From Clostridia bacterium (GTDB lineage: Bacteria; Bacillota; Clostridia; Oscillospirales; CAG-382), in the NCBI GenBank assembly GCA_017397605.1, contig JAFQII010000242.1, positions 1 to 14,215 of the forward strand: a stretch of 14,215 nt of DNA, given 5' to 3'. The notes beneath the pieces are model-generated. The model ran no database searches, was not told the DNA's origin, and worked only from the letters and a program-made list of their open reading frames with translations. Of the stretch, positions 3,450-5,371 are shown in pieces. Positions within the stretch are counted from its first letter, which is position 1; every line of letters starts with the position of its first letter. The position numbers were made by a program, and so were the translations under genes.

Positions 3450-3656
3450 GTGATATGCTTCGCTCGCGCTCAGCGTGATATTTTTGCTTCGCAAAAGTGA
3501 TATTGCTCCACTTCGTTCCGCAGTGATATTATATACGCCCCAAACAAACTTCCGGCGCTCTCCGTCCACAGACGGAGAGCATATCACGTCCGAAGGACAT
3601 ATCACTGCGTAGCAATATCACTCGCCCCTGCAAGGGGCGAATATAACTGAAAAAAC
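3450..3656. repeat. Intergenic palindromic repeat block, copy B
   Basis: A second chain of the same modules. GTGATAT occurs at 3450, 3475, 3497 and 3523; the inverted form ATATCAC occurs at 3581, 3599 and 3615. Modules between them are small palindromes, for example TTTTGC-TTC-GCAAAA, GTCC-GAA-GGAC and TGC-GTA-GCA, plus a perfect 10-bp stem with CACA loop at 3557-3580. The left half uses GTGATAT and the right half ATATCAC, so the whole block is roughly an inverted repeat. It shares a 34-bp and a 42-bp exact segment with copy A, and its right end merges into the tRNA terminator. The 35 bases between copies A and B show nothing recognisable. Confidence 0.75.
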
Positions 3657-3680: not shown

Positions 3681-3755
3681 TGGTGACCCGTACGGGAATC
3701 GAACCCATGTTACTGCCGTGAAAGGGCGGTGTCTTAACCTCTTGACCAACGGGCC
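3681..3755 (-). tRNA. tRNA-Glu (anticodon TTC), CCA encoded
   Basis: The minus strand folds as a cloverleaf: acceptor GGCCCGT with ACGGGTC, discriminator A then CCA, D arm GTC/GAC, anticodon loop CTTTCAC, and T loop TTCGATT on an ATGGG/CCCGT stem. The anticodon stem CCGCC/GGCAG carries one C-A mismatch at positions 28-42, where the usual sequence would be GGCGG. It is the second tRNA of a two-gene transcript. Confidence 0.95.
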
Positions 3756-3758
3756 TTA

Positions 3759-3835
3759 TGGTAGCGGAAGGTGGACTCGAACCGCCGACCGACCGGGTAT
3801 GAACCGATTGCTCTAGCCAACTGAGCTATTCCGCC
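3759..3835 (-). tRNA. tRNA-Met (anticodon CAT, elongator type), CCA encoded
   Basis: Cloverleaf on the minus strand: acceptor GGCGGAA with TTCCGCT, including the G1-U72 pair also found in elongator tRNA-Met of Bacillus, then A and CCA. D arm GCTC/GAGC, anticodon loop TTCATAC, variable loop CGGTC, T loop TTCGAGT. The T stem GGCGG/CCACC has one C-A mismatch at 51-63. A CAT anticodon could also mark tRNA-Ile2 (lysidine-modified), but the acceptor and anticodon stem fit elongator Met better. It lies 3 bases upstream of tRNA-Glu and is first in the transcript. Confidence 0.93.
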
Positions 3836-3997: not shown

Positions 3998-4032
3998 CTT
4001 TTTGGCTTTTGACAGAAAGGAAGTTTTTGACT

Positions 4033-5010
4033 ATGACCATTCGTATCGGCATTTTGGGCTACGGAAACCTCGGACGCGGTGTGGAGTGCGCACTCCGTCA
4101 GAATCCCGACATGGAGCTCGTCGCGGTTTTTTCCCGCCGCGGCAACATTGACACGCTCACACATGCGCTGTCCCTGCCTTTGGACGCGCTGGAAGATTAT
4201 AAGGATAAAATCGACGTGATGATTCTGTGCGGCGGCTCGGCGACCGACCTGCCCGTGCAGACTCCCGAGTATGCGTCCATGTTCAACGTCGTGGACAGCT
4301 TTGACACGCATGCCAGGATCCCCGCGCATTTTGCGGCGGTGGACGCGGCGGCAAAAGCATCGGGCAAGTGTGCGGTCATTTCCGCAGGCTGGGATCCCGG
4401 TATGTTCTCTTTAAACCGTATTTACTCTATGGCTCTTCTGCCCGAGGGCGAAACATACACCTTCTGGGGCAGGGGCGTCAGCCAGGGACACTCCGACGCG
4501 ATCCGCCGTATCGACGGCGTCGTCGACGCAAGACAGTATACCGTTCCCGTCCCCGAAGCAGTTGCACAGGTGCGCTCGGGCGCGATGCCGACGCTTTCCA
4601 CGCGTGACAAACACACGCGCGAGTGCTTTGTCGTCGCAGAAGAGGGCGCCGACCTTGCACGCATCGAGCAGGAGATCAAAACGATGCCCAACTATTTTGC
4701 GGATTACGACACGACCGTGCATTTTATTTCCGCAGAGGAATTAAAGCGTGATCACGCCGCACTTCCGCACGGCGGCTCGGTCATCCGCACGGGCGTGACG
4801 GGACTGAACAAGGAGCACCGCCATGTGGTCGAGTACCAAATCAAACTGGATTCCAACCCCGAGTTTACCGCAGGCGCGCTGGTCGCGTCGGCACGCGCGG
4901 TCTACCGCTTGGCAAACGAGGGCAAGAGCGGATGCATGACCATGCTGGACATTCCGCCCGCGTACCTTTGCGCGATGTCGGGCGAGGAATTGAGAGCGGC
5001 GCTGTTATAA
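4033..5010 (+). CDS. ddh: meso-diaminopimelate D-dehydrogenase
   Basis: 325 residues, the usual family length. The enzyme (EC 1.4.1.16) makes meso-diaminopimelate in one NADPH-dependent step from tetrahydrodipicolinate and ammonia, feeding peptidoglycan and lysine synthesis. Seen here: the Rossmann motif GYGNLG at residues 9-14, SATDLP at 69-74, SFDTH at 89-93, the substrate-binding GWDPGMFSLNR at 119-129, and WGRGVSQGHSDA at 145-156. These match the Corynebacterium glutamicum enzyme closely as I recall it. The frame extends to a TTG at 4009, but the ATG at 4033 has AAAGGAAG 9 bases upstream and places the Rossmann motif at the usual distance. It is a single-gene transcript with its own perfect promoter and a strong terminator, suggesting steady high expression. 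Confidence 0.96.
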   Translation: MTIRIGILGYGNLGRGVECALRQNPDMELVAVFSRRGNIDTLTHALSLPLDALEDYKDKIDVMILCGGSATDLPVQTPEYASMFNVVDSFDTHARIPAHFAAVDAAAKASGKCAVISAGWDPGMFSLNRIYSMALLPEGETYTFWGRGVSQGHSDAIRRIDGVVDARQYTVPVPEAVAQVRSGAMPTLSTRDKHTRECFVVAEEGADLARIEQEIKTMPNYFADYDTTVHFISAEELKRDHAALPHGGSVIRTGVTGLNKEHRHVVEYQIKLDSNPEFTAGALVASARAVYRLANEGKSGCMTMLDIPPAYLCAMSGEELRAALL

Positions 5011-5140: not shown

Positions 5141-5168
5141 AAAAAATGCGCCTACCGAAGCAGACGCC
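5141..5168 (-). terminator. UUCG-capped intrinsic terminator of the structured RNA
   Basis: On the minus strand GCGTCTGC, loop TTCG, GTAGGCGC form an 8-bp stem with two wobbles, followed by A and six T (5146-5141). Confidence 0.85.
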
Positions 5169-5336
5169 AAAAACGCAAACTCCGTTAGTCGCCAAACCAA
5201 CCTTTGTGATACCTGAGTATATCAGTTGCCGCAAAGTAGGAATTTGCATTTTATCAAATTCAACTTTACGACAAAAAAACGTGTATCAAAAAAAGAAAAT
5301 GCACCCAATGATCACAGCTTATTCGGTTGGTTTGGC
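5141..5336 (-). ncRNA. Structured RNA of unknown family, about 195 nt
   Basis: It has its own consensus promoter (5343-5371), a predicted start near 5336, and an intrinsic terminator at 5141-5168. The first 12 transcribed bases (5325-5336) pair perfectly with 5191-5202, closing a domain of about 145 nt. Inside lie a 6-bp stem (5311-5316 with 5205-5210) and a long apical hairpin at 5226-5274: an 11-bp stem with wobbles (5264-5274 with 5226-5236), then a 7-bp stem (5255-5261 with 5240-5246) and an 8-nt loop. Loop bases 5247-5252 can pair with 5297-5302, a possible pseudoknot. Two runs of seven U lie on the 5' side. The rod shape recalls 6S RNA, but I recognise no family sequence. The only frame inside (36 codons from the ATG ending at 5249) has no ribosome binding site. 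Confidence 0.72.
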
Positions 5337-5342
5337 ACTATC

Positions 5343-5371
5343 ATTATAACGTGTTGCTTGCAGTTTGTCAA
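5343..5371 (-). promoter_or_regulatory. Consensus promoter of the structured RNA
   Basis: On the minus strand TTGACA (5366-5371), exactly 17 bases, TATAAT (5343-5348). No start codon with a ribosome binding site follows before the terminator at 5141, so it should drive a non-coding transcript. Confidence 0.9.

Follow-up and report, generated by a model that had tools for sequence, protein, structure and literature searches.

What might a perfect promoter serve when it is followed by a compactly folded transcript and a terminator but by no credible gene? This question is raised by the minus strand of the window (i.e., the whole 14,215-nt stretch of clostridial DNA analysed here), for which the initial annotation had proposed a stand-alone RNA resembling 6S RNA. 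The TTGACA-17-TATAAT promoter it described is real, matching at 12 of 12 positions (5371-5343; the looser threshold of the promoter scan, 9/12 matches, has an expectation of 1.2 sites per 1,501 bases). It was also right that no credible gene lies behind the element on the minus strand; the neighbouring ddh ORF, which is convergent, stops at 5010. The element and its parts are as follows.

5141..5336, minus strand: whole element, a putative 196-nt leader RNA that begins at the predicted +1 (G5336) and ends with the terminator U-run; fold z -5.7
5343..5371, minus strand: sigma-70-type promoter TTGACA-17-TATAAT, 12/12 match, with 6 nt from the end of the -10 box to the first base of P1
5325..5336, minus strand: 5' strand of the closing stem P1, GCCAAACCAACC; 12/12 pairs with 5191-5202
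5191..5202, minus strand: 3' strand of P1, GGUUGGUUUGGC; same basis as the 5' strand
5320..5324, minus strand: joint following P1, GAAUA, with AAUA as the family consensus; its columns are conserved in alignment A7
5255..5261, minus strand: strand a*, GAAUUUG, the 5' side of the apical stem and rival of b for strand a
5239..5252, minus strand: switching strand a, AAAAUGCAAAUUCC, comprising the apical loop and the 3' side of the apical stem; 14/14 complementary to b
5180..5188, minus strand: strand c, the 5' strand of the antiterminator, CUAACGGAG; 8/9 pairs with 5152-5160, with one A.G mismatch in the window copy
5170..5183, minus strand: strand b, GGAGUUUGCGUUUU, pairing with a; the GGAG of b overlaps c
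5148..5167, minus strand: intrinsic terminator hairpin GCGUCUGC-UUCG-GUAGGCGC; U-run 5141-5146
5152..5160, minus strand: 3' strand of the antiterminator, CUUCGGUAG, made up of the loop of the terminator and a portion of its 3' arm
4009..5010, plus strand: meso-diaminopimelate dehydrogenase (ddh), the convergent neighbour, outside the RNA unit

The RNA in the window and known families

The minimum-energy fold of the window RNA has -68.0 kcal/mol, compared with -44.2 ± 4.2 kcal/mol in 200 shuffled sequences (all folded without pseudoknots; z -5.7, with no shuffle as good). Three of the helices proposed at the outset recur in it, namely the exact 12-bp closing stem P1, the 6-bp stem at 5207-5224 and the UUCG-capped terminator, while the apical hairpin at 5226-5274 is present with 12 + 7 bp and not with the 18 bp claimed. 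The fold as a whole is branched, and the earlier description of a rod like that of 6S RNA does not fit it.

Searches against Rfam bore out the initial view that the element belongs to no known family. No covariance model reached its gathering level over the window copy, and hits up to E 10 comprised only snoRNA and microRNA families at chance level. Specifically, 6S RNA (SsrS, RF00013) gave no match to this copy, whether the cut-off was the gathering level or E 10, and no Rfam match to raiA RNA was listed for it. Across 20 further loci, no riboswitch or leader family was found over the element up to E 0.5. Two sub-threshold hits were MIR807, which lies over the element in locus L018 (28.3 bits against a gathering level of 113; E 0.13), and HPnc0260, which overlaps the edge of the element on the opposite strand in L013 (E 0.056). 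Phage records contained no match to the element, and we found no published description of it, including by a term search of the accessible text of PMC11109978, PMC8632094 and PMC8040213; an unnamed entry for this element is possible among the 3,161 human-microbiome candidates in the supplement of the last of these. The element is a member of an RNA family new to Rfam, of which we have more than 200 members in hand.

Size, spread and closing stem of the family

When a 235-base stretch was used as blastn query, the own genome proved to contain one more copy, and 6 of 39 other relatives gave matches; the match in G025 spans 38 bases only (E 8e-4). We characterise the family through a covariance model, R1, built from 9 copies and covering a 68-nt 3' core; R1 includes the 3' strand of P1 but not its 5' strand or the promoter. 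Within the order, R1 matched 116 of 295 genomes at E 0.01 or better (own genome counted), with a best E of 1e-5 or better in 86; the 30 genomes with only weaker best matches (E above 1e-5) may represent plain terminators. Within the class, 80 of 391 genomes matched at E 1e-5 or better, and in a phylum-wide sample of 299 the own genome alone did so at E 1e-6. A single genome carried up to 10 matches in the order and up to 12 in the class, and the own genome, which is 61% complete, has 4 at E 1.4e-6 or better plus 2 weaker ones. The exact core pattern was found in at least 119 stretches in named genomes; one of the search patterns used misses the window copy itself, since it has a gap of 2 bases where the window has 3. 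Among the matches listed, 80 of 80 titles denoted metagenome-assembled or uncultured organisms, mostly Clostridia, Clostridiales, Oscillospiraceae and Ruminococcaceae, and many of the listed matches came from the gut of goat, sheep, deer, cattle, buffalo, yak or rabbit (the last read from 'Lapin'). Five IMG/VR contigs (L200-L204) also carry the core pattern. Given that the core in L204 is followed by a lipoprotein-like ORF, some of these contigs may be bacterial DNA filed as viral.

Three R1 alignments gave 230 rows and, with duplicates removed, 223 members, which include two doubtful rows (L018:2826-2893 and L080:1748-1828) and some partial or tandem second matches. Pattern-picked loci contributed 76 members (80 of the 119 were given to R1) and viral contigs contributed 3; selection by pattern favours consensus sequence in P1, b and c, and the remaining 144 members keep the results. 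Alignment A7 holds 93 of 140 non-redundant members with a P1-to-P1 length of 138-164, a range that leaves out the short forms described below. As controls we used both shuffles, which are uncorrected for relatedness, and slid versions of each helix, which do correct for it.

P1 was found in 213 of the 223 members, or in 204 of 214 once the 9 model sequences are set aside, and the 10 members with no P1 were dropped. Its pairs 1-12 are 93-100% paired in the 213, with frequent compensatory changes (e.g., C:G to U:A or G:C at pair 3, or A:U to C:G at pair 5). The initial annotation had staked its proposal on homologues keeping both the closing stem and the apical hairpin: among the 93 aligned members P1 is indeed kept, through many compensatory changes, and the apical stem is kept more weakly (see below). 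In 204 of 213 members, P1 is preceded by a TA...T box at a distance of 4-10 nt, the spacing being exactly 6 nt in 166; control points further upstream gave such a box in 86 of 611 cases, and 164 members have a -35 box of at least 4/6. Given this promoter-like box, the transcript most likely starts at P1 throughout the family, as in the window.

Two mutually exclusive folds

Covariation in the family supports two folds, both of which contain P1. The first combines P1 and the UUCG terminator with a pseudoknot helix of 14-15 bp, AAAAUGCAAAUUCC/GGAGUUUGCGUUUU, between strands a and b. The terminator is 99.3% paired in the 223 members, with 210 double-change cells compared with 48 in shuffles. The a:b helix has 14 of 14 pairs in the window copy and 13.6 on average in the family, and strand a scores 28.3 with its own b, whereas the b of another member gives 25.7 ± 0.14 and shuffled inner sequence 15.2; once pattern-picked members are set aside, the other 144 score 28.2 and 25.1 (swapped). 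Columns of a:b in 172 members were 97.5% paired, against 89.7% in shuffles (maximum 90.9%), and showed 119 double changes against 12.6 (maximum 27); these 172 are those of the 213 members with at least 12 a:b pairs, shuffled within the same set, and the column values are inflated because of this filter and because registers were set per sequence. On A7 (93 sequences), fold 1 as a whole is 98.2% paired with 228 double-change cells (70.8 in shuffles), and its slid versions reach at most 47.7%, while the a:b helix by itself varies mostly one-sidedly, both sides having changed in 4 of 15 pairs.

The a:b helix was absent from the initial annotation and is the best-supported extra helix; in it, a pairs with the strand before the terminator. 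A different pseudoknot had been proposed there, between the apical loop and a U-rich 5' segment. Its 7 complementary bases exist in the window copy, but it is unsupported across the family, GCAUUUU/AAAAUGC scoring no better with its own partner than with a swapped one (means of 12.56 and 12.49; 200 members). Comparison of the members points to a conserved pseudoknot other than the one first suggested, joining apical strand a to the strand 3' of P1.

The second fold combines P1 with the apical hairpin a:a* and a 9-bp antiterminator, in which strand c pairs into the terminator loop and 3' arm. In many members c is CUAUCGGAG or CAAUCGGAG and pairs with CUUCGGUAG or CUUCGGUUG. Pairing in the antiterminator reaches 95.1%, compared with 89.5% in shuffles (maximum 90.7%) and at most 61% in slid versions; the 144 members not picked by pattern give 93.5% against 87.9% (maximum 89.4%), with 60 double-change cells against 18.4. 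Changes in the terminator loop are compensated in c in six loci (L062, L040, L056, L104, L131 and L143) and in part in L057, while terminator loops UACG and UGCG leave one antiterminator pair without its match in c. The apical stem a:a* is 87-93% paired in the 93 aligned sequences with few double changes; in 151 of 203 members filtered for pairing it is 89.0% paired against 82.7% in shuffles within the same set, a percentage that the filter (a loop of 8-9 and at least 4 pairs) inflates. On A7, fold 2 is 95.4% paired with 190 double-change cells (63.6 in shuffles), and slid versions reach at most 51.2%. For both folds on A7, none of 500 shuffles reached any of five measures.

Since GGAG is common to b and c, and strand a is common to a* and b, the two folds exclude one another. 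The family therefore has the anatomy of a transcription-attenuating switch, i.e., two exclusive and covarying folds, one with a terminator and one with an antiterminator. In isolation, the median helix energies in 187 members are about -12.9 kcal/mol for the terminator, -6.7 kcal/mol for the 9-bp antiterminator and -16.1 kcal/mol for a:b.

A shorter form, with 111-122 nt between the P1 ends, was seen in six loci (L056, L060, L066, L071, L078 and L231). It retains P1, a, b and the terminator and seems to have no P3/P4 region; as read by eye, a different and longer hairpin seems to hide strand a.

Genes behind the element and the proposed switch

We asked how often the element precedes a gene. 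A ribosome-binding site (RBS) with an ORF on the same strand (at least 50 codons, or at least 40 if running off the end) was found within 200 nt after the terminator in 175 of the 214 members for which 350 nt or more of downstream sequence was available (the other 9 of the 223 were too short), at a median distance of 26 nt, compared with 24 of 107 in a divergent-strand control; with the pattern-picked loci left out, the count was 110 of 140. The other 39 of 214 have no ORF by these rules, though some, such as L003, have one by laxer rules. A full 9-pair antiterminator is present in 124 of 157 members with an ORF and in 19 of 34 without. Given that an RBS and ORF stand behind so many members, we take the family to be a 5' leader and not a 6S-like RNA.

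A signal-like N-terminus was found in 60% of 152 downstream proteins and in 26% of 453 background ORFs (Fisher p 8e-14), and a lipobox in 19% and 4%, respectively; these tests used simple patterns on proteins of at least 90 residues, with background ORFs called mechanically in 75 loci. For family scans we used 148 of the 175 downstream proteins, each cut at 300 residues. The commonest Pfam families were BspA-type leucine-rich repeats (17 proteins) and zinc ribbons (8 to 11 per model), followed by the copper amine oxidase N-terminal domain (6), MazE/AbrB (6) and CHAP (5). No single pathway was apparent among the 25 commonest of 68 Pfam families, scans with PADLOC, PHROGs and NCBIfam revealed no single theme in the downstream proteins, and gene context offered no ligand candidate. 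In one locus (L138) an ORF 183 nt away, outside the protein scan, looks synthetase-like by eye. The element thus appears to precede many variable genes for surface and secreted proteins in gut Clostridia that are known mainly from assembled metagenomes.

We consider it highly probable, judging from the comparisons above, that the element belongs to a new family of leader RNAs acting in cis, which turn transcription of the gene behind them on or off by a choice between terminator and antiterminator. Two features typical of transcription-attenuating leaders are present in the family: an intrinsic terminator with a U-run before a gene (the window copy being without the gene), and a conserved antiterminator exclusive with the terminator (8 of 9 pairs in the window copy). 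The helices and their mutual exclusivity, like the promoter-like site and the position before genes, are established at the level of sequence; we infer from them switching between two states in vivo, its ON/OFF direction and sensing by the 5' domain. In the proposed mechanism, the transcript would start at P1, and strand a (AAAAUGCAAAUUCC) would either be hidden in the apical hairpin a:a* or pair with strand b (GGAGUUUGCGUUUU), which lies immediately 3' of P1. With a hidden, nothing would keep b and the overlapping c from invading the loop and 3' arm of the terminator, giving read-through (ON). With a:b formed, c would be blocked and the UUCG terminator would fold, so that transcription would stop (OFF); the 14-15 bp pseudoknot would thereby act as an anti-antiterminator. 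Because both folds are backed by covariation, they yield exact strand-swap predictions and could provide an entry to the signal that these bacteria sense.

Such a leader would share much with the terminator/antiterminator riboswitches of Bacillota, which likewise begin at +1 and have a closing P1, a pseudoknotted fold, an intrinsic terminator with a competing antiterminator, and an RBS and gene behind. It differs from them in three respects: no Rfam riboswitch or leader family matches it (window copy, and 20 loci up to E 0.5), its genes are varied and often encode surface or secreted proteins instead of one metabolic pathway, and the anti-antiterminator would be a pseudoknot of 14-15 bp. In Clostridia, surface genes are controlled by c-di-GMP riboswitches (GEMM), which resemble the new family in having many copies per genome and surface and secreted targets but differ in size and sequence and have no Rfam match in the window or the 20 loci. 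T-box leaders are also long leaders with a terminator/antiterminator choice; here, by contrast, no T-box Rfam match was found in the window copy or the 20 loci, and among the 148 downstream proteins scanned, the 25 commonest families include none for tRNA synthetases or amino acids.

A scattered gene set enriched in surface and secreted proteins suggests that the switch responds to a sensed input. About half of our confidence goes to a 5' domain that senses a small molecule or second messenger, one quarter to a protein or RNA factor as the input, and the rest to an input-free or physical switch or another explanation. More tentatively, and with somewhat less than even confidence, we propose a new and widespread riboswitch class of uncultured gut Clostridia in which a small molecule or second messenger is sensed directly and, through the pseudoknot-driven anti-antiterminator, governs a global regulon rich in genes for surface, secreted and lipoproteins; stand-alone copies such as that in the window would then be terminated RNAs that might titrate the signal or pair in trans (a with b) with further leaders of the family.

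Rather doubtful, in our judgement, is an attenuator governed not by a small molecule but by a protein (an antitermination factor) or an RNA acting in trans. In the 5' half, a hairpin followed by a U-run occurs in 52% of 183 members against 14% of shuffles (at -3 kcal/mol or better), which may be a pause site or a protein site, and a global regulator would fit the scattered regulon; on the other hand, no regulator gene is consistently linked to the element among the downstream proteins scanned. An input-free bistable RNA, in which a:a* and a:b compete closely and commitment is random or set by polymerase speed or temperature so that surface proteins are bet-hedged, seems unlikely to us. It would agree with the enrichment in secreted-like proteins and with the energies of pseudoknot-free folds, in which forcing the antiterminator costs a median of 0.0 kcal/mol above the minimum (10-90% range 0 to 2.7; the 169 members with at least 7 antiterminator pairs) and +2.0 kcal/mol in the window copy. 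A fine balance is found in ordinary riboswitches too, however, and the presence of a structured 5' domain speaks for more than chance switching.

That the element is a regulatory RNA in its own right (6S-like or some other sRNA), with a terminator that simply ends the transcript and an incidental closeness to genes, we now regard as very unlikely. The likeness to 6S RNA lies in the window element's length of about 190 nt, its own strong promoter and its long closing stem, and the idea draws further on the window copy, which has terminators behind it and no downstream gene, and on the 39 of 214 members without an ORF. Yet genes lie directly behind 175 of 214 members (24 of 107 in the control), a covarying antiterminator would be needless in a plain terminator, and the window copy has no 6S match. 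Moreover, 6S RNA is a stand-alone gene with few copies per genome that binds RNA polymerase through an open central bubble, whereas the new element is branched, with a multibranched interior predicted in the window in place of such a bubble, has no Rfam match, has a gene behind most relatives and occurs in up to 12 copies per genome. The original comparison with 6S RNA is accordingly abandoned. To a mobile DNA element or recombination site with a fold reflecting DNA symmetry (e.g., an integron attC site, the boxes of which follow RYYYAAC/GTTRRRY) we give hardly any credence: multiple and tandem copies, varied adjacent genes and the likeness of P1 GCCAAAC/GTTTGGC to attC boxes speak for it, but that P1 sequence departs from the consensus at position 4, C:G at P1 pair 5 in 20 of 213 members breaks the AAC/GTT box, the promoter spacing is fixed, the terminator has a covarying antiterminator, G.U pairs occur, and the genes lie behind the element and not in front.

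Under the leader reading, the window copy is a member that retains promoter, P1, a:b (14/14) and terminator. With no gene behind it and one A.G mismatch in its antiterminator, this copy should have a terminated RNA of about 195 nt as its main product; it may be left over from a unit that has lost its gene, or it may be a stand-alone RNA. Its location looks lineage-specific, since an R1 search of 17 other ddh loci of the same genus (about 1.5 kb on each side, with a distant second homologue, L288, left out) gave no significant match, the best score being at chance level (L284; 10.8 bits, E 0.41); with no such synteny, ddh is no clue to the element's function. Tandem arrangements were seen in two loci. 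In L231 (422-805) there are two complete units, each with promoter, RNA and terminator, and the gene behind the second unit appears, by eye, to recur in truncated form after the first; orphan copies may arise by duplication and gene decay, as this locus suggests. In L230 (423-909), an additional, partial 3' core lies behind each of the two tandem elements and carries a terminator of its own.

The window also contains a Gut-1 RNA (RF01706) at 3576-3649 on the minus strand (59 bits; gathering level 50), adjoined by two tRNA genes (3684-3755 and 3762-3835). In element-bearing loci, Gut-1 scores were 73.2 and 43.5 bits in L022 and 44.5 bits in L012, the latter two values being below gathering level.
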